The notes below the pieces were generated by a model. That model was not told the DNA's origin. It was given only the letters and a program-made list of their open reading frames with translations, and made no database searches. A DNA stretch of 33,775 nucleotides from a virus. A program made the position numbers and the translations under genes. The stretch covers positions 1 through 33,775 of IMG/VR virus record IMGVR_UViG_3300008267_000179; one strand, 5' to 3'. Positions 2,152-11,645 of this stretch are shown in pieces; the first letter of the stretch is position 1; each line of letters opens with the position of its first letter.

Positions 2152-2357
2152 AAGAACGCAACAAAACAATAGTTGAACTTTATGATTTAGGAGTTAGTTA
2201 TGAAGATATAGGTAAAAGATTCAACTTAAAAGCGAATAGCGTTTGTGATATTATTATAAAAGTAAAATCTAAATACTTTGCACCTGGAATCTTTAACGTT
2301 CACGATTATGATTGTTGGATAATGCCTACAAAAAAATCTTATGAATTTAACAACTAA
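2142..2357 (+). CDS. Helix-turn-helix protein
   Basis: A 71-aa protein whose first 45 residues form a homeodomain-like or sigma-region-4-like helix-turn-helix: IVELYDLGVSYEDIGKRFNL (10-29), followed by a recognition helix around ANSVCDIIIKVK. The remaining residues (FNVHDYDCWIMPTKK) do not match anything I know. It could be a small early transcription regulator. It overlaps both neighbours and sits directly upstream of replication-related genes. Confidence 0.6.
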   Translation: MEIKERNKTIVELYDLGVSYEDIGKRFNLKANSVCDIIIKVKSKYFAPGIFNVHDYDCWIMPTKKSYEFNN

Positions 2358-2643
2358 AGACAAAGTAAAAAGCCTTTTAATCAACTACCCACATTTAAGG
2401 GATTCAGATGAAAGATTAATAGCTACCTATTGGATGAAAGAAGCAGGAAGTAAAGATGCTTTGGATAATATGACTGCAACTAAATTCCTTTTAAATTTCG
2501 TAGAAGGTGCTTACACAAGTCCTGAATCCATCCGCAGAATGAGGCAAAAGATTCAAGAACAAGATGAATCATTAAGGGGTAAATCCTATCAAAAAAGACA
2601 AAAATTAGAACAAGATGTTAGAAGCAAAATTAGAAGTTTGTAA
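2341..2643 (+). CDS. Conserved phage early protein (SPESIRRMRQKIQE family)
   Basis: A 100-aa, largely helical and basic protein. Residues 18-32 (HLRDSDERLIATYWM) and 60-85 (SPESIRRMRQKIQEQDESLRGK) resemble a small family widespread in phages of several phyla, with no established function that I can name. The arrangement suggests a nucleic-acid-binding early protein. It starts inside the preceding gene, and its end overlaps the DnaA-like gene by 29 bases. Confidence 0.65.
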   Translation: MNLTTKDKVKSLLINYPHLRDSDERLIATYWMKEAGSKDALDNMTATKFLLNFVEGAYTSPESIRRMRQKIQEQDESLRGKSYQKRQKLEQDVRSKIRSL

Positions 2644-3007
2644 TCCGTGTGTTGAGCATCCTTCTTACTTTAAAATCAATCCTATAAGTAAGCGTTTAAA
2701 TTCAAATGAAATATTGGAATCTATTTCTAAATTCTTTGAAATACCTGTGAATGAAATAGTAGGTAAGAAAAGGACTGCTAAAATAGCTGAAGCAAGAATG
2801 GTTGCTGCCTATGTTTTAAGAAAGGACAGATATTTAAGTTTAGGCTTAAAGCATATTGGAAATATTTTAGGTGGCAAAGACCATACTTCAGTAATGCACC
2901 ACGTTAAAAGAATTGGTGAATTGATTGACATTGAGCCTGAATTTAGAGTTAAGATTAAGGAAGTATTCCTGGAAACCTACGGAAGTACAACTTATTTTTA
3001 CGATTGA
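2615..3007 (+). CDS. Stand-alone DnaA domain IV (DNA-binding) protein
   Basis: This 130-aa protein matches the C-terminal DNA-binding domain of DnaA and lacks the AAA+ and helicase-loading domains. Residues 32-66 (EILESISKFFEIPVNEIVGK onward) correspond to the first helices. GGKDHTSVMHHVKRI (86-100) is the DnaA signature, including the Asp-His-Thr that reads the DnaA box (D89, H90, T91). It may bind DnaA boxes in the phage or host chromosome, either to help initiate at the phage origin or to compete with host DnaA. The gene for the probable replication initiator lies 330 bases downstream. The start at 2615 precedes a possible Cys-containing extension (CNPC), so a later start cannot be excluded. 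Confidence 0.85.
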   Translation: MLEAKLEVCNPCVEHPSYFKINPISKRLNSNEILESISKFFEIPVNEIVGKKRTAKIAEARMVAAYVLRKDRYLSLGLKHIGNILGGKDHTSVMHHVKRIGELIDIEPEFRVKIKEVFLETYGSTTYFYD

Positions 3008-3031
3008 TTTTTTCCCTATTGAAAATTGATT

Positions 3032-3039
3032 TATATTTG
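3032..3039 (+). promoter_or_regulatory. Bacteroidota-type -7 element (TATATTTG)
   Basis: TATATTTG matches the TAnnTTTG -7 element used by Bacteroidota primary sigma factor. The expected transcription start is near 3045, at the foot of the first hairpin of the structured RNA that follows. A good -33 TTTG is missing; the nearest TTG (3004-3006) is 25 bases upstream, longer than the usual 19-21. Confidence 0.5.
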
Positions 3040-3044
3040 TTCAA

Positions 3045-3139
3045 CGATTTGTAAATGAAGAGCGAACCATTTACAAATTTATTTTAGAGAAATCTAAATA
3101 AATGCCCTGCAGTTCGCTCCTGTGGGGCTATTTTATTTT
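3045..3139 (+). ncRNA. Structured RNA with three hairpins and complementary loops
   Basis: Hairpin 1 is a perfect 11-bp stem (3047-3057 with 3068-3078) with the 10-nt loop AAGAGCGAAC. Hairpin 2 is a 6-bp stem (3083-3088 with 3093-3098) capped by the GNRA tetraloop GAAA. Hairpin 3 is a 9-bp GC-rich stem with two GU pairs (3104-3112 with 3120-3128) and the 7-nt loop TTCGCTC, followed by a T-rich run. The entire loop of hairpin 3 is complementary to GAGCGAA in loop 1, so a kissing interaction is possible. It lies between a -7 element and the ATG at 3140. It may be a small RNA ending at hairpin 3 or a 5' leader that controls the next genes. Structures were read by eye and not energy-folded. Confidence 0.6.
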
Positions 3140-3352
3140 ATGGCAATAGAAAAAAGATATTATGATTCAGAAGCAGATTATCCCCATTATTTAAGTTTTT
3201 TTCATACTTGTGATAATAAAATAAGAATTATTATTGAAGATAAATCAACTGGATTTTTCGTTGAATTAGAAGGAGATGAATTAAAAGAGTTAATACAAGA
3301 CCTTAACTTTATTCTTAAAGATATAAATGATTCAGAAAATGAGTTACATTAA
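3140..3352 (+). CDS. Small acidic hypothetical protein
   Basis: A 70-aa acidic protein: MAIEKRYYDSEADYPHYLSF, a beta-type core (KIRIIIEDKSTGFFVELEG) and a C-terminal helix (DELKELIQDLNFILKDI). No family recognised. I use ATG 3140, directly after the T-rich end of the structured RNA. An in-frame GTG at 3122 would place the start inside hairpin 3 and adds only an unlikely hydrophobic extension. The end overlaps the replication initiator start by 14 bases. Its synthesis could be controlled by the upstream RNA fold. Confidence 0.6.
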   Translation: MAIEKRYYDSEADYPHYLSFFHTCDNKIRIIIEDKSTGFFVELEGDELKELIQDLNFILKDINDSENELH

Positions 3353-4145
3353 ATTAGATAGGGATTTGCTTTATAGTTACTGCTTCGCTAATCCTAATCA
3401 TTTAAAAATTTGGATTTGGTTATTGATTAAAGCTAACTTCAAGAATGCTTTTATTCCTATTAATTTAGGTAAAGGATATAAGACAATAGAGGTTAAAAGA
3501 GGTCAATTAATCTATGGTAGAAACAAGGCAGAAGATGAACTTGGATTGAATGGAAGTTTAATTGATAGGACTTTAAAAGAATTTGAGAATTTAGGGCAAA
3601 TTAAACGTGAAGTTAGCAGCCATTATTCAGTCATAACTATTTGTAATTATGATAGTTATCAAAGCAAATCGGATGAACTTGAACAGGCTATGAACAACCA
3701 ATGCGCAACAAATGAACAACCAATGAACAACACTTGCACAACAAATGAACAACACGTGAACATATATAAAGAAGAATTAGAAGAAAAAGAAAGTAAAGAA
3801 GAAAGAGAAGTTAGTAGTGCGATTTCTTTAAAAAATTCAAATTTGTTTAGGAAACCTAAAGTTCCAAGCCTGGAAGAAGTTCAAATGAATTTTATTAGTT
3901 GTGGTGGAAATAAAGAAATGGCTGAAGCATTTTTCAACAAGCATAGTGCAGTTGATTGGTTTATGAAAGGTTCACCGATAACAAACTATAAAACTTTAAT
4001 TCCTAATTTTATTAAAATCTTTAACGAAAATGAATCAAAATCTAATAAAACAAGACAACAAACAACTAACGACTCACTTGAGTATATCACAAACAAAGGT
4101 GCTGAACTCTATGCCAAGCTATATGGCTCCGATTCTCAAAGCTAA
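3339..4145 (+). CDS. Probable replication initiator (O-like, N-terminal winged helix)
   Basis: This 268-aa protein opens with MSYIKLDRDLLYSYCFANPN, then a winged-helix domain (about 1-115, with LKIWIWLLIKANFK and the GQLIYGRNKAEDELG wing region) of the type found in phage replisome organisers. A flexible Asn/Gln/Thr linker (about 118-140) and a Lys/Glu-rich stretch follow, then a helical C-terminal domain (about 165-268, with VDWFMKGSPITNYKTLIPNF). The linker-coding DNA carries four iterons, as in lambda O. It should bind the origin and recruit a loader or helicase through its C-terminus. ATG 3339 is preferred to 3327 because it gives the conserved N-terminus directly. The gene overlaps the next frame by 116 bases. 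Confidence 0.7.
   Translation: MSYIKLDRDLLYSYCFANPNHLKIWIWLLIKANFKNAFIPINLGKGYKTIEVKRGQLIYGRNKAEDELGLNGSLIDRTLKEFENLGQIKREVSSHYSVITICNYDSYQSKSDELEQAMNNQCATNEQPMNNTCTTNEQHVNIYKEELEEKESKEEREVSSAISLKNSNLFRKPKVPSLEEVQMNFISCGGNKEMAEAFFNKHSAVDWFMKGSPITNYKTLIPNFIKIFNENESKSNKTRQQTTNDSLEYITNKGAELYAKLYGSDSQS
3690..3810. other. Candidate replication origin: four iterons plus purine-rich tract
   Basis: ATGAACAAC occurs at 3690, 3712, 3723 and 3745, with spacings of 22, 11 and 22 bases, which are whole helical turns. CAACAAATGAACAAC is repeated exactly at 3706-3720 and 3739-3753. The copies at 3690 and 3723 are read as Met-Asn-Asn, while those at 3712 and 3745 are read in another frame as part of Asn-Glu-Gln. 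The repeat is therefore kept at the DNA level and not by the protein. Immediately after, 3768-3810 has only three pyrimidines in 43 bases, a possible unwinding tract. Iterons plus an A/G-rich tract inside an initiator gene copy the layout of the lambda origin. Confidence 0.6.
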
Positions 4146-4872
4146 AGAAACAGGTGTTCCATTCCGTAAAATGTCAAATGATGAACTTTTGCTTTCTGCT
4201 TATTCGCTAATCGTAAAAATGAATGTTATTACAGGTTGGGCAATTTTGGACAAAAAACTCCTGGACATTTTCGCTGAACAACTTTCTTTAAAACTTTCAG
4301 AAACTTATTCTTTCCTAAACCAAAATGAAATAGAATACGCTTTCAGAACTTATTCAGTTAATGATTGGGGTAAGAACTTCAACCTAAACGCTTTAGACGA
4401 GGTTTTAAAGCCGTATCTTACTTTAAGAAGGGAATTACACGTTAACGAATCAAAAGCCGAAATTCTGCTTACTATGGCTTCTAAAGAAATATCACAAAAA
4501 GAAATGATGCAAGATGTAGAAGAATACCTTACTAAAGATACTTTAGAAGTTAATTTAATACCTATCTATATTTATGATTATGCTGAAAAGTTAGGGTTGA
4601 TAAATTTAAGCAGGGATGAAAAGATAGCAATTTACGAAGAAGCCAAAAGTTTTAGACAAAGGGAATTATGCAACTCTGCAAAATCTAACCGAATAGACGA
4701 CATTATGGCGAACAATATCTTTTTTGAAATGGTCAAAAAGAATGAAATTACTGATGAAGAAAAGTTTAGGTTGCAGAATCTTTCAAAAAAATTAGCATTT
4801 AAAAAGTATTATGAAAGCAAAAAAAATAGACCTTCCGAAGTTAAAAAAGAAAGCACAAGAAACATTCAATAA
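4030..4872 (+). CDS. Replication-associated protein, possible helicase-loader partner
   Basis: A 280-aa mostly helical protein. I do not recognise a catalytic domain and see no Walker motif. Notable segments are NEIEYAFRTYSVNDWGKNFN and NALDEVLKPYLTLRRELHVNE in the middle, and a basic C-terminus (KLAFKKYYESKKNRP). I have the impression of a family found beside replication genes in Bacteroidota phages. Its position between an O-like initiator and NinG matches the place of lambda P, so a helicase-loader role is a reasonable guess from context only. The start is uncertain: ATG 4030 overlaps the initiator by 116 bases, and in-frame ATGs at 4111 and 4123 would give 253- or 249-aa proteins. Confidence 0.6.
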   Translation: MNQNLIKQDNKQLTTHLSISQTKVLNSMPSYMAPILKAKETGVPFRKMSNDELLLSAYSLIVKMNVITGWAILDKKLLDIFAEQLSLKLSETYSFLNQNEIEYAFRTYSVNDWGKNFNLNALDEVLKPYLTLRRELHVNESKAEILLTMASKEISQKEMMQDVEEYLTKDTLEVNLIPIYIYDYAEKLGLINLSRDEKIAIYEEAKSFRQRELCNSAKSNRIDDIMANNIFFEMVKKNEITDEEKFRLQNLSKKLAFKKYYESKKNRPSEVKKESTRNIQ

Positions 4873-6876: not shown

Positions 6877-7073
6877 TAAAGATTAGCGAAATATTAGACA
6901 AGATGCTTATTGAATTTAAAGAATCCGATAACACGGAATTTTTAATGTCTGAAGCAAATGTTTTAAAACTATCTGAAGAACTTGGAGTTCCTGATTCTTT
7001 AGTAATTGATTACAAAGGAATGGTAGTAACTGCAATGGAAGGGTGCGATGAATTTAAAATCTATCTACGATGA
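6873..7073 (+). CDS. Small acidic hypothetical protein
   Basis: A 66-aa acidic helical protein (ISEILDKMLIEFKESDNTEF, then LSEELGVPDSLVIDYKG). I recognise no domain. It is coupled to the 25-aa membrane peptide upstream and to the glycosyltransferase downstream (ATGA at 7070-7073), so it is part of the operon from the 6006 promoter. Confidence 0.6.
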   Translation: MIKISEILDKMLIEFKESDNTEFLMSEANVLKLSEELGVPDSLVIDYKGMVVTAMEGCDEFKIYLR

Positions 7074-8077
7074 AAATATTAGGATTAGGGCATAGAATGT
7101 CAGGGGTTACCTTTCACCGAATAACACTTCCTTTAGCTTATATGAATGGAGTCAAAGGAATGGTTACTGACCTGCCAACTATTGAAATGATGAATGAAGG
7201 ATGGGATATAGTTCTATTCAATAGGCATTGTGCTTTAGATAACGATTGGAACGATGTTAGAGGAATAGGTGCTAAAATAGTAATGGATTTAGATGATGAT
7301 TGGATTCTACCACCTAACCATATGAACTACGAAGCATATTTAGAAAAGAAACCTGTAATAGAAAACAATCTTCGTGAAGCAGATTTAATAACTACAACTA
7401 ATGAAACCCTTGCTGAAAAAATTTATCCGTTCAATAAGAACGTACTTATTATTCCAAATGCTTTACCTTACGGACACCACCAATTCACTACGGAGAAAAA
7501 AGAAGATGAAAGAGTAAGAATATTTTGGGCAGGTGGTTGCACACACGAACACGACCTGGAGATATTGAGAAACCCTTTACAAAGGTTGACAACTTTCAGC
7601 GACAAAATTAAAATGGTTATAGGTGGCTATACTGATTCAGACCCACATTCAAAATATGTTTGGGATAGAATGTTTAACTCATTAACTGCTAATAAGAGAT
7701 TACCTTATATGAAGTTGAGTTCTTTAGAACCGATAAACTATATGCAGCTTTATGAATACGCTGATATTATGTTAGTTCCTTTAGAGAAATCAGAATGGCA
7801 TTCTTGTAAGTCAAACATAAAGATATTAGAAGCAGCGACTAAAAAAGTTCCTGTCATTTGCTCTAATGTAGAACCATATGCAAGGGATAAAGACGCACCT
7901 GTTTTTTGGGTGAATAGTCAAAAGGATTGGTTCGTGCATTTAAAAGATTTAATTTTGAATCCAAATAAAAGAATAGATTATGGAGAAAAACTCTACGAGT
8001 GGGCAAAAGAAAACTACGACCTTATCAAAGTCAACGAAGGAAGAAAAGCCGCATTTGAAAATCTTATCAAAGCATAA
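7070..8077 (+). CDS. GT-B glycosyltransferase (GT4-like)
   Basis: This 335-aa protein has the two-domain layout of GT-B enzymes. The N-terminal Rossmann part includes MKILGLGHRMSGVTFHRITL and VMDLDDDW. The C-terminal nucleotide-sugar domain has VRIFWAGGCTHEHDL, YEYADIMLVPL and KSNIKILEAATKKVPVICSN, the last carrying the Lys and Glu positions typical of GT4 donor binding. No membrane anchor is seen, so the acceptor is cytoplasmic. Because the same operon ends in a TET-associated glycosyltransferase and a TET-like oxygenase, it may add a second sugar to a modified base. Glycosylation of a virion protein is the alternative. Start and stop overlap the neighbours. Confidence 0.75.
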   Translation: MKILGLGHRMSGVTFHRITLPLAYMNGVKGMVTDLPTIEMMNEGWDIVLFNRHCALDNDWNDVRGIGAKIVMDLDDDWILPPNHMNYEAYLEKKPVIENNLREADLITTTNETLAEKIYPFNKNVLIIPNALPYGHHQFTTEKKEDERVRIFWAGGCTHEHDLEILRNPLQRLTTFSDKIKMVIGGYTDSDPHSKYVWDRMFNSLTANKRLPYMKLSSLEPINYMQLYEYADIMLVPLEKSEWHSCKSNIKILEAATKKVPVICSNVEPYARDKDAPVFWVNSQKDWFVHLKDLILNPNKRIDYGEKLYEWAKENYDLIKVNEGRKAAFENLIKA

Positions 8078-8261
8078 ACACTACTACGATTTCTATATGA
8101 GAAACGGAGAGGTTGTAAACTTTTGGCATAGCGTTCAGGATGAAATCTTAAATGCTTATAGGGTTGAATTTCCTAATTATACCTACCAAAGAACTTGTCC
8201 TGCTTGTGTAGCTGAATTTTTACACAGGGTTTATTCTTGGTACAACACACAAATACAATGA
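8055..8261 (+). CDS. Small CPAC-motif protein with a TTG start
   Basis: Using TTG 8055 the protein is 68 aa: MKILSKHKHYYDFYMRNGEV, then VNFWHSVQDEILNAYRVEFP and TCPACVAEFLHRVYSWY. The CPAC motif suggests metal binding or thiol chemistry. The only in-frame upstream ATG (7980) would add 25 low-complexity residues inside the glycosyltransferase gene, and the next ATG (residue 15) would cut the conserved-looking start, so TTG is the best choice. I have seen similar small proteins in Bacteroidota phages but know no function. It overlaps both neighbours, ending in ATGA. Confidence 0.55.
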   Translation: MKILSKHKHYYDFYMRNGEVVNFWHSVQDEILNAYRVEFPNYTYQRTCPACVAEFLHRVYSWYNTQIQ

Positions 8262-8938
8262 ACGAATTTTTCCATTCAGGTGCAACAGGGGATATAATCT
8301 TTTCACTACCTACTATTAAAGCAATGGGTGGTGGTAAGTTATACATTAGCAACTTTGACAAACAAAGAAGCGAATCAGTAAAGAAATTAATTGAAGTGCA
8401 ACCTTACATTTCTGAAGTAGTAATTATGGATGGTCACGCACCTGGCTACGATTTAAACCGATTCCGTGACTACGCAGGGCATCATTCTAATTTAGTAGAA
8501 GCACACTTCAAAGGACTTCAGCAACCTATTAACCCAAATTGGAAAGAAGGTTGGTTAACTTTACCTGAACCTAACTTTGAATTATTCCCAACAAAAAAGT
8601 ATTCAGTAATTAACAGGACGAATAGATATGCAGACCCTACTTTTAATTGGGCAAACGAAGTAGAATATCTTAAAACTATTTCTGATGAAGTTTACTTTTT
8701 AGGTTACTTTCAAGAATGGCAGGAATTTAATAACACTTTTGGAACTAACATAAATTTTGTAGATTTAGATTTTTTAGAAGGTGCTTACTTTATTAAGAAC
8801 GCAGTAATGTTTTCAGGCTGCTATTCTGCTTGGTCAACTATTGCTATGGGATTAGGGTTAAGTTATAGATTAGAACAAGCACCTGGACATACCTGTTCAA
8901 CATTATTTGCTCCACGTGAAACTATTATAAATGTATAG
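8258..8938 (+). CDS. GT9-like (heptosyltransferase-type) glycosyltransferase
   Basis: A 226-aa protein beginning MNEFFHSGATGDIIFSLPTI, which resembles the first strand and Gly-Asp loop of GT9-type GT-B enzymes (GD followed by hydrophobics and P). Later parts include YSVINRTNRYADPTFNW and a C-terminal donor-like segment (MFSGCYSAWSTIAMGLGLSY). It is shorter than typical heptosyltransferases (about 320-350 aa), so it may be a reduced or divergent member. ATG 8258 is chosen because it overlaps the previous stop as ATGA and gives the conserved N-terminus. By operon context it may act on the same glycan or modified base as the gene at 7070. Confidence 0.6.
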   Translation: MNEFFHSGATGDIIFSLPTIKAMGGGKLYISNFDKQRSESVKKLIEVQPYISEVVIMDGHAPGYDLNRFRDYAGHHSNLVEAHFKGLQQPINPNWKEGWLTLPEPNFELFPTKKYSVINRTNRYADPTFNWANEVEYLKTISDEVYFLGYFQEWQEFNNTFGTNINFVDLDFLEGAYFIKNAVMFSGCYSAWSTIAMGLGLSYRLEQAPGHTCSTLFAPRETIINV

Positions 8939-9446
8939 TCAAGAAAAACAAGACGAGTTCGTTCTACATATGATGAACGGAAAAGTAGGTGAATATTTAG
9001 AAGTAGGTGCTTCGCATCCTATTGACATAAATAATACTTTCCTATTAGAGCAACACGGATGGACAGGGTTAAGTATAGACATTGACGATTCCTGCAAACA
9101 AATATGGGCAGAGAAACGAAAGAATCCTTTAATTATTGCAGATGCTTTAACCTTTGATTATCCACAAAAGGAAAGAATAGATTATCTTCAAATAGATGTT
9201 GACCCTTCAGAAGTAAGTTTCAAAGCACTTATTCAGGTACTTAAAAGCAAGACAAGATTCTCAATAATAACCTACGAAACGGATGCATACGCAGATATGA
9301 CCTATGTTCAACCAAGTAGGCAACTTCTACAAAGCAAAGGTTACAAACTTATTTATCCTGATGTTCTTTGTGGCTTCGGTCCATTTGAAGATTGGTATAT
9401 TGATGAATCAGTAATTAATGCAGAACTTTTTAAAACATTTAAATGA
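8931..9446 (+). CDS. FkbM-like SAM-dependent methyltransferase
   Basis: A 171-aa protein with the SAM-binding motif GEYLEVGASHP (20-30), the acidic end of strand 2 (GLSIDID, about 48-54) and DYLQIDVDP, the counterpart of the LKIDVEG signature of FkbM enzymes. FkbM enzymes commonly methylate sugar hydroxyls. Lying between glycosyltransferases and a base-modification pair, it may O-methylate a DNA-linked or virion glycan, which is inference. The start overlaps the preceding stop, and the end overlaps the ParB-like gene (ATGA). A perfect DnaA box (TTATCCACA, 9158-9166) falls inside the gene, probably by chance. Confidence 0.75.
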   Translation: MYSQEKQDEFVLHMMNGKVGEYLEVGASHPIDINNTFLLEQHGWTGLSIDIDDSCKQIWAEKRKNPLIIADALTFDYPQKERIDYLQIDVDPSEVSFKALIQVLKSKTRFSIITYETDAYADMTYVQPSRQLLQSKGYKLIYPDVLCGFGPFEDWYIDESVINAELFKTFK

Positions 9447-10015
9447 AACTAAACCAAATCAAAAGCAATCCTAATAATCCAAGAATTATTAAGGATGAAA
9501 AGTTTAAAAAACTTTGCGAATCAATTAAGGCACTTCCTAAAATGATGGAGTTAAGACCTATTGTTGTAGATGAAAACTTTATTGTTCAGGGTGGCAATAT
9601 GCGACTAAAAGCATTGAACGAATTAGGGTTTAAAGAAATTCCTGATACTTGGGTTAAACAGGCTAAAGATTTTACTCAAGAAGAACTTAAAGAATTTATC
9701 ATTAAAGATAATGTTGGATTTGGTGAGTGGGATTGGGATGACCTGGCTAATAATTGGGATGTTGAAAAGTTAGAAGAATGGGGTTTAGATATTCCTAATT
9801 TTAATATCCCTATTGAAGAGCCTGAAATAGATAAGGACATGTTATCAGAAGCTATGGACACATATATAAATAATACGATAAAACAAATTGTTTTGTATTT
9901 TGAAACTGAAAAATATATTGAAATATTAAACAATCTAAATAAAATATCTGAAAATGAAGGACTTGCTGATAATTCAGAAGTTGTTGATTTTTTAATAGAA
10001 AAACATTTAAAATGA
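9443..10015 (+). CDS. ParB/sulfiredoxin-fold nuclease-like protein
   Basis: This 190-aa protein has an N-terminal ParB-like domain (1-70): LNQIKSNPNNPRIIKDEKFK at the start, ELRPIVVDENFIVQGGNMRL with the QGGNMR catalytic or nucleotide-binding loop (about 49-54), and the usual ALNELGFKEIP end. Residues 80-110 (EFIIKDNVGFGEWDWDDLAN) also recur in phage ParB-like proteins. The C-terminal third is unique. Such domains occur beside DNA-modification enzymes in phages, where they may bind or cut DNA or hydrolyse nucleotides. The stop overlaps the TET-associated glycosyltransferase start, so the genes are coupled. Confidence 0.8.
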   Translation: MKLNQIKSNPNNPRIIKDEKFKKLCESIKALPKMMELRPIVVDENFIVQGGNMRLKALNELGFKEIPDTWVKQAKDFTQEELKEFIIKDNVGFGEWDWDDLANNWDVEKLEEWGLDIPNFNIPIEEPEIDKDMLSEAMDTYINNTIKQIVLYFETEKYIEILNNLNKISENEGLADNSEVVDFLIEKHLK

Positions 10016-10749
10016 ATATAGTTGTAGCAATACCTACAAAATCAAGATTTAATACAAAAACATATAAACTTTTTGAAGAAGTAGGAATAAAGACATTCCA
10101 TTTTATTGAGCCAAATGAAATTGAAAAATATAATGTTCCTAATAAAATAAATATTGAAAAAAATAATAATGGCATTGCCTATGTTAGGAATTTCATATTA
10201 AAATGGTCTAAAGAAAATGATTTTGAAAGAGTAATTATATGTGATGATGATGTTACTTCTTTTGGAATATATAATGGTAAAACAATTAAAAAAAATGCTT
10301 CAATATGGATTGATATATATAATAAAGTCAAAGACCTGCCTTTTGAAATTATAGGAATAAATTATATTCAACATGCATGGCATGAAAAAACTTCATATTC
10401 TATAAATAAAAAATTTGCTGAAGTATGTATAATGATTAATGCAAAAAAAATATCCTGGGATTATAGACCTGAATTCAATCTTAAAGAAGATAGAGATTTT
10501 TCATTACAAACTATTAAATATGGGAATGGAATATTAAGATATAATCATTATTGGTTTTCCTGTCCAAATGTTGGTAGCAATTTAGGTGGACTTCAAGATG
10601 AATATAAAGCTAAAAAAGATGAATTGTCTTCCAAAAAAATGTGTTTAGAATGGAGTCCATTTATAACATTAAACAAAAAAGGAGATAGAATAGATATGAA
10701 AACTGATATAAAAAAATTTGCTGAGTATTATAAAAAAACTGTAAAATGA
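10012..10749 (+). CDS. TET-associated glycosyltransferase (TAGT-like, GT-A fold)
   Basis: This 245-aa protein starts MNIVVAIPTKSR, the nucleotide-sugar-binding start of GT-A enzymes. GIAYVRN (54-60) and the metal-binding ICDDDV (76-81, DDD at 78-80) follow. KEDRDF (158-163) is the probable catalytic acidic motif, and NVGSNLGG (186-193) comes near the end. This combination fits the glycosyltransferases predicted to act on 5-hydroxymethylpyrimidines in phages with TET/JBP oxygenases. Its stop overlaps the start of such an oxygenase (ATGA), so the pair is made together. The gene is strikingly AT-rich (AAA and ATA codons dominate) compared with the preceding genes, suggesting separate acquisition. 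Confidence 0.8.
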   Translation: MNIVVAIPTKSRFNTKTYKLFEEVGIKTFHFIEPNEIEKYNVPNKINIEKNNNGIAYVRNFILKWSKENDFERVIICDDDVTSFGIYNGKTIKKNASIWIDIYNKVKDLPFEIIGINYIQHAWHEKTSYSINKKFAEVCIMINAKKISWDYRPEFNLKEDRDFSLQTIKYGNGILRYNHYWFSCPNVGSNLGGLQDEYKAKKDELSSKKMCLEWSPFITLNKKGDRIDMKTDIKKFAEYYKKTVK

Positions 10750-11645
10750 AAATAATAGAAATAAAACCAAAAGAAATTGATATTAATTCATTTAAAAAAA
10801 GAACTGCATTAGATTCAGATGCAGAAATATTGATTAATGAAGATACAATAATAACAACAAATGGTCAGCCTGTCATTATGTATTGCAAATTAAAAGAAAA
10901 CTTAAATAATTTAAGATGGGCAGTAAATAATATTAAATATAGTCAAGGTAAAAGAGCACGAGGTTTAATACATCAAAGTGCAGTTTTTGGATATAAACCA
11001 AAAGTTCCAATGAGACAAGATTTTTGTTCTGCTACTTCTATGTCAAGAAATCATGCTAAAGAGCATTTTATAATAACTGAATTTGCTAAAAATCTTACCG
11101 AATATTATAAATCTTCATTCCCTGAAGTATTTTCAAAGCATATAAATATTGTTCAAGAAAAAATTAAAAATGAATGGGTTATTAAAGGAACACCATTTAC
11201 TTCAGGAATTATTAACAAAGATAATGCACTAAAATATCATTTTGATGCAGGAAATTTTAAAGGAGTTTTATCAAATATGGTAGCATTTAAAAAAAATATG
11301 AACGGTGGAAAATTAGTTATACCTGCATACAATATTAAACTGGAAATTGAAGATGGTTCACTATCAGTTTTTGATGGACAATCAATTTTGCATGGAGTAA
11401 CTCCATTTGAAAAAAAATCATCAGATGCATATAGATATACTATTGTATATTATTCTTTAGAGCAAATGTGGAAATGTGAAACAATATCAAATGAATTAAT
11501 CAGAATAAGATCAAAGAAAAAAGAAAGAGAATTTAAAAGATTAGATAATGAACATTTAGAATATTTAAAAAAAGAGCATATTGCATTATTATCGCATTCT
11601 AATAAAGAATATATGGCTCATTTTGATAATAAAAAAGATAAATAA
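10746..11645 (+). CDS. TET/JBP-family 2-oxoglutarate/Fe(II) dioxygenase
   Basis: This 299-aa protein carries the full catalytic set of the phage TET/JBP family. HFD (165-167) lies in KYHFDAGN, whose HxDxxN pattern is characteristic. H216 is in DGQSILHGVTPFE, R230 in YRYTIVYYS would bind 2-oxoglutarate, and MWKC (241-244) follows, also typical. The reaction is Fe(II)- and 2-oxoglutarate-dependent oxidation of a methyl group on a DNA base, most likely 5mC to 5hmC given the cytosine methyltransferase at 5170. The C-terminal 50 residues are charged and helical. It is coupled to the TAGT-like gene and shares its extreme AT-richness. Thymine as substrate (as for JBP) is possible but less likely. 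Confidence 0.88.
   Translation: MKIIEIKPKEIDINSFKKRTALDSDAEILINEDTIITTNGQPVIMYCKLKENLNNLRWAVNNIKYSQGKRARGLIHQSAVFGYKPKVPMRQDFCSATSMSRNHAKEHFIITEFAKNLTEYYKSSFPEVFSKHINIVQEKIKNEWVIKGTPFTSGIINKDNALKYHFDAGNFKGVLSNMVAFKKNMNGGKLVIPAYNIKLEIEDGSLSVFDGQSILHGVTPFEKKSSDAYRYTIVYYSLEQMWKCETISNELIRIRSKKKEREFKRLDNEHLEYLKKEHIALLSHSNKEYMAHFDNKKDK

Follow-up and report, generated by a model that had tools for sequence, protein, structure and literature searches.

What fills the gap between the DnaA-like gene and the replication operon of the virus recorded as IMGVR_UViG_3300008267_000179? We analysed the whole IMG/VR record (33,775 bases, hereafter the window), for which the original prediction had proposed a -7 element, three hairpins and a T-rich run within 3032-3139. 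All of these were located there, and they are given here together with the genes on either side.

2615-3007, plus strand: gene for a DnaA domain-IV-like HTH protein of 130 aa (Pfam Bac_DnaA_C, E 4.8e-19)
3032-3039, plus strand: -7 promoter-like element TATATTTG of the Bacteroidota type (TAnnTTTG), 6 nt before hairpin 1
3046-3057/3068-3079, plus strand: hairpin 1, 12 bp including a terminal G-U, with a 10-nt loop at 3058-3067, AAGAGCGAAC
3060-3066, plus strand: kissing sequence 1, GAGCGAA, loop positions 3-9, the perfect complement of 3113-3119
3083-3088/3093-3098, plus strand: hairpin 2, 6 bp with a GAAA loop; 3080-3081/3099-3100 can extend it (3080-3100)
3104-3112/3120-3128, plus strand: hairpin 3, intrinsic-terminator-like, 9 bp with a 7-nt loop; its stem covaries
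3113-3119, plus strand: kissing sequence 3, TTCGCTC, the entire 7-nt loop and the exact reverse complement of GAGCGAA
3129-3139, plus strand: T-rich tract TATTTTATTTT, which abuts the ATG at 3140 and is kept in all copies
3140-3352, plus strand: operon gene 1, 70 aa, without assigned function, its ATG immediately 3' of the T tract
3327-4145, plus strand: DnaD-like helicase loader/replication initiation gene (phrog_2514, E 6.8e-25)

Together these hairpins make up an RNA element of ~92 nt just 5' of the DNA-replication genes. Hairpin 1, previously counted as 11 bp, gains a twelfth with its terminal G-U, while the dimensions given for hairpins 2 and 3 were correct, as was the claim that the third loop is fully complementary to part of the first. 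The MFE fold of the 108 nt (-28.1 kcal/mol, z = -3.65) contains all three hairpins, in agreement with the predicted fold, and equal stability was reached in 0 of 200 shuffles. The combination of two hairpins, a 7-nt loop match and a T-rich tail arose once in 40 dinucleotide-shuffled windows (~0.025 per window); the single sequence of the window is suggestive without being decisive, and it is covariation in relatives that decides. Outside the two loops, the exact 7-mer is absent from the window (either strand) and from the related contigs L002, L150, L152 and L153, and loop matches with two mismatches are as numerous in the genome as expected from shuffling. The hairpins stand side by side, with neither an enclosing helix nor a conserved junction. 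An alternative fold of one relative (L224), in which loop 1 pairs with the linker, did not look conserved among the other RNAs and was set aside.

The upstream protein carries a CNPC motif at its N-terminus; it and its homologues are small DnaA domain-IV proteins of phages that share an N-terminal CxPC and lack an ATPase domain, and in the window and these relatives the RNA and this gene are strictly linked. A family search with the 70-aa protein encoded downstream gave no match, and a GTG inside hairpin 3, at 3122, is unlikely to be the start of its gene. Within the DnaD-like initiator gene, at 3680-3756, lies an array of 11-bp repeats (TGAACAACnAA-like), a candidate iteron origin comparable to that in lambda O, and the initiator gene of L150 has similar TTGAACAAC repeats. 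Farther along, genes at 7070-11645 match phage glycosyltransferases and a queuine tRNA-ribosyltransferase-like protein and include a ParB-like nuclease, possibly a DNA base modification cluster. The TerL of the window is of the standard type (phrog_2, E 4.9e-44), and none of the window proteins that were scanned looked like an integrase. The hosts of this phage group are probably Bacteroidota, judging from promoter type, base composition and weak similarities of proteins.

Relatives were found through the DnaA-HTH protein and through DNA patterns, loop complementarity not being part of the query. This yielded 24 copies of the RNA, that of the window included, in 24 IMG/VR contigs, all from a single collection of metagenomic viral contigs; 17 of the RNAs are distinct and at least 23 related phages are represented. 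Every RNA recovered has complementary loops, with no mismatched-loop copy among them. A DnaA-HTH homologue lies upstream at all 24 loci, including those found through the RNA pattern only, and matches to replication initiation or primosomal families lie downstream of the RNA in L221, L261, L152 and L256. The promoter and RNA of most copies follow the end of the upstream gene and run up to the next start codon. A GIY-YIG endonuclease gene, inserted precisely at this junction, separates the DnaA-HTH gene from the RNA in L152 (2863-3246) and at the equivalent place in L151, L153, L220 and L223. A model built from the stems of the distant group finds L007 at 8.8e-07 and L003 at 0.0014, which supports homology between the window's group and the distant ones, weakly for the window's own group.

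Two isolates with a DUF4373 initiator, Flavobacterium phage 1/32 and a Porphyromonas phage, leave no room ahead of the DUF4373 gene for an RNA of this kind; similar DNA was not found in phage and plasmid collections, and a scan of one genome returned distant DnaA relatives only. A promoter-only pattern, TANNTTTGNNNAACGATTT, was discarded after returning 120 unrelated AT-rich sites without the RNA. We also note a different leader upstream of the phage DnaA-HTH gene in L155 (2398-2510), L173, L174, L185, L187 and L188, with a sigma-70-like promoter, a DnaA-box-like TTATCCACA, a strong terminator and a CAGTCT/AGACTG complementarity; its loops are invariant, and their pairing is putative.

The kissing-loop reading, for which covariation in relatives had been named as a check, is upheld by these sequences. 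In a structure-based alignment of the 17 distinct RNAs, 119 of 119 pair cells in the kiss are standard (118 Watson-Crick and one G-U, the terminal pair of L007), a count biased toward pairing by the positioning of the loop-3 partner by complementarity. In every RNA that partner coincides precisely with the loop of a separate hairpin whose closing pair is G-C (A-U in L007), and two-sided changes occur at six of the seven kiss positions. There are eight loop types (GAGCGAA, GGACAAG, GTACGAA, GTCGCAT, GTGGTAT, GTAGAAG, ATAGTAG and GTGGTAG), always mutually complementary; across them 56 of 56 pairs form, and the true pairing alone among 40,320 permutations achieves this. In MAFFT alignments scored against a structure specified beforehand, pairing in the kiss helix reaches 100% in the distant group, with four covarying pairs, and likewise in the window's own group. 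When the partner was slid along the alignment the covariation signal was lost, and in the distant group the covariation score of the whole structure exceeded those of all shuffles and slides.

The form of loop 1 is constant, with two nucleotides, the seven kissing nucleotides and one further nucleotide, and loop 3 is 7 nt long (8 in L007). Stem 1 covaries between groups. Hairpin 2, which has one compensatory pair (columns 35-55) within the window's group, is confined to that close group and is missing from L007 and all distant relatives. Judged by these alignments, the three-hairpin RNA originally described is best seen as a conserved core of hairpins 1 and 3, which stands, and an accessory hairpin 2, which does not extend beyond the close group. 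The RNA structure itself is near-certain. Computed free energies of the 7-mer duplexes range from -5.5 to -9.3 kcal/mol within a type and, for most combinations of different types, are higher than -4; the clear exception is GTGGTAT with GTGGTAG, whose cross-pairing is nearly as strong as their pairing within type (-7.3 kcal/mol), so the types are not all orthogonal.

The stems and kiss together contain 40 G-U cells and 0 A-C cells, which marks the functional molecule as plus-strand RNA and not DNA. In the relatives a similar promoter-like element (TATATTTG, TATCTTTA, TATTTTTG or TAAATTTG) is found 5-6 nt 5' of hairpin 1. The sigma-A box of Bacteroidota is positioned at -12 to -5 (PMC9723704), from which we predict a start at ~3044, 2 nt 5' of hairpin 1 in the window. 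No terminator-like site other than hairpin 3 lies in 2300-4200; as a terminator tail, its TATTTTATTTT is weaker than CCCTTTTTT, which is found in the distant group. Of the roles first suggested (small RNA, attenuator or translation switch), the constant spacing of the promoter-like element and the terminator-like hairpin right at the start codon point to an attenuating leader, one that would also yield a short RNA.

How the loop types are distributed is most evident from closely related pairs. Comparison of the window with L004 shows substitutions at 8 of the 14 kissing bases, all of them compensated, and at 0 of 75 bases of the RNA outside the kiss, compared with 21 of 390 in the dnaA-like gene. 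L002 and L003 are of different types despite a shared downstream gene family and near-identical flanks, and the window and L003 have HTH proteins that are 98% identical and loops of different types. The type GTAGAAG, for its part, is found with very dissimilar DnaA-HTH proteins and stems. When the types are placed on the DnaA-HTH tree, many inner branches of which are weak, 12 changes are counted, the minimum for eight types being seven; three types occur within one metagenome (contigs 3300027770_000018, _000019 and _000637). The loop type thus switches repeatedly relative to neighbouring sequence and behaves like an allele for specificity that is not tied to the sequence around it, whether by recombination, selection or both.

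The Rfam 15 covariance models gave no match in the window, the best sub-threshold scores being far below gathering (26.6 versus 59 bits, and 20.5 versus 50 bits for L225), and no described RNA of this layout was found in the literature searched, which covered few subscription journals; the earlier remark that none was known agrees with both searches. In ColE1, RNAI and RNAII have stem-loops that engage in loop-loop kisses, and loop sequence fixes the compatibility type (PMC9458437). The phage RNA resembles this pair and other plasmid antisense copy-control RNAs in its three stem-loops, a likely role in replication control and putative recognition through the loops; covariation shows its kiss and its loop types, which may confer specificity between molecules. 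Unlike RNAI, it has no antisense transcript lying opposite a target, since both loops are in one plus-strand transcript, a sense-strand leader; unlike ColE1, it belongs to a phage rather than a plasmid and precedes an initiator operon instead of acting as a primer RNA.

In the CI RNA immunity of P4 and phiR73 and in the C4 RNA of P1, a short operon-leader phage RNA works by pairing with RNA and terminating transcription prematurely; P4-type specificity differs among heteroimmune relatives, and P4 itself relies on the separate linear complementarities of seqA, seqB and seqC. The present RNA is likewise a short phage leader, one that would act through termination and RNA pairing. Unlike P4, it has two hairpin loops that kiss within ~92 nt, no integrase gene accompanies it among the proteins scanned, and separate complementary sites are lacking, the 7-mer being confined to the two loops in the window and the same four contigs. 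Because there is neither an antisense gene nor a second target site, we regard the RNA, by analogy, as functional kin to ColE1-type loop compatibility and P4-type RNA immunity and as a member of neither.

The pRNAs of the phi29 family also have two mutually complementary loops, different between phages yet matched, and the loops of the leader would similarly permit intermolecular kissing. Unlike a pRNA, the leader has a terminator hairpin, precedes a replication operon and occurs in a phage without a phi29-type packaging ATPase; rather than a protein-primed phage with a gp16-type enzyme, this is one with a standard TerL and a DnaD-like helicase loader. GOLLD and ROOL, also noncoding RNAs of phages, have kissing loops that covary (PMC12286853), but they are several hundred nucleotides long, with many interfaces, and have no sequence or structure relation to the leader. 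The analogy drawn earlier with lambda oop holds for position, as a small RNA adjoining replication genes, and fails for mode: oop is antisense to cII/O, whereas this RNA is intergenic, on the same strand as its neighbours, and complementary to nothing else in the genome. The closing P1 helix and conserved ligand-binding junction of the purine-type riboswitch, which has a loop-loop contact, are absent.

The reading that we prefer, to which we give about an even chance, is that the element is a leader RNA and attenuator of the replication operon whose kissing loops serve type-specific self-recognition, like plasmid incompatibility RNAs. Transcription would start at ~3044 and run through the 5' hairpin and then the intrinsic-terminator hairpin, where the majority of transcripts would be halted just before the ATG at 3140, and a ~92-nt RNA would accumulate. 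A 7-bp kissing helix would form between the loops of hairpins 1 and 3, and because discrete types switch while self-complementarity is always kept, the kiss may signal self-recognition by type. Leaders of the same type would be bound, at hairpin 3 or 1, by short terminated RNAs or by the 5' hairpin of the leader itself, and this pairing would set the frequency with which polymerase reads through into the replication genes, with gene-dosage feedback and same-type interference among co-resident phages as the outcome. The sequences show the structure, the covarying kiss, the transcribed strand, the position, the promoter-like element and the type switching, while we infer production of the RNA, its termination, the kiss between molecules and the sign of the regulation. 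Since the scan of window proteins turned up no integrase, a lysogenic resident that would exert immunity is not evident. We propose more tentatively, as a doubtful extension, that a self-kissing leader contains both halves of an exchangeable recognition code and that the types are RNA immunity or incompatibility groups.

The main rival to type-specific self-recognition is kissing in cis only, assembly into multimers being a lesser one. Covariation alone could be explained by cis kissing, the loops being complementary within one molecule, and a purely intramolecular kiss would fold the 5' leader into a compact shape that governs how well the terminator works, how stable the RNA is or how accessible the start codon 11 nt further on is, its loops drifting neutrally with complementarity alone mattering. 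The spacing of the kissing sequences is near constant (47-53 nt), as intramolecular contact would require, a rough estimate from helix lengths suggests that the linkers just about suffice (24 nt, or 12-17 nt where hairpin 3 is longer), and one RNA contains all of the pairing. The contact becomes sterically tight once hairpin 2 is fully extended, and neutral drift should alter stem pairs too, which is at odds with differences at 8/14 kissing bases and 0/75 others and with the recurrence of types on unrelated backbones (12 changes); recognition between molecules would account for the diversification. A kiss in cis only seems to us rather unlikely. Loop 1 might instead kiss loop 3 of the next molecule to build functional dimers, rings or chains, and two mutually complementary, type-varying loops are indeed the layout of pRNA. 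Multimerising kissing-loop phage RNAs also exist (PMC12286853). This RNA ends in a terminator and precedes a replication operon rather than lying at a packaging locus, in a phage with an ordinary TerL, and a single intermolecular interface is evident, all of which makes such self-assembly distinctly improbable.

Two further explanations would dispense with a functional RNA kiss. Inverted operator half-sites, or a promoter or origin cruciform, could be bound as DNA by the DnaA-like protein, whose gene is always adjacent; stem 1 is a DNA dyad across the predicted start site, and the iteron-like array at 3680-3756 is near. The excess of G-U over A-C cells (40 to 0) is that of an RNA of one strand and was the ground for rejecting an operator or cruciform, and the loop type changes while the HTH protein hardly does (98% identity between the window and L003), leaving a DNA element very improbable. 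Finally, the locus might combine an ordinary terminator of the upstream gene with an unrelated 5' hairpin whose loop matches by chance, a coincidence expected ~0.025 times per shuffled window. Most copies have the promoter and RNA 3' of the gene and at the next start codon, and the covariation, with eight of eight types matched and 56/56 pairs, rules out a chance match, so that we consider the likelihood of this explanation negligible.

The loops are thus hypervariable yet always matched, in the replication control region of a little-studied phage group, and nature provides allele pairs that differ almost solely in their loops (the window and L004, L002 and L003), while for RNA engineering the eight loop types are a ready set of kissing pairs. 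The sequences suggest a self-recognising RNA control of replication outside the Rfam families searched, and could establish that phages have RNA incompatibility groups. If this is true, each leader RNA would recognise leaders of its own type only and control the replication of same-type genomes in the cell, and selection in virus populations would keep the loop types diverse, with neither an antisense gene nor a repressor protein.
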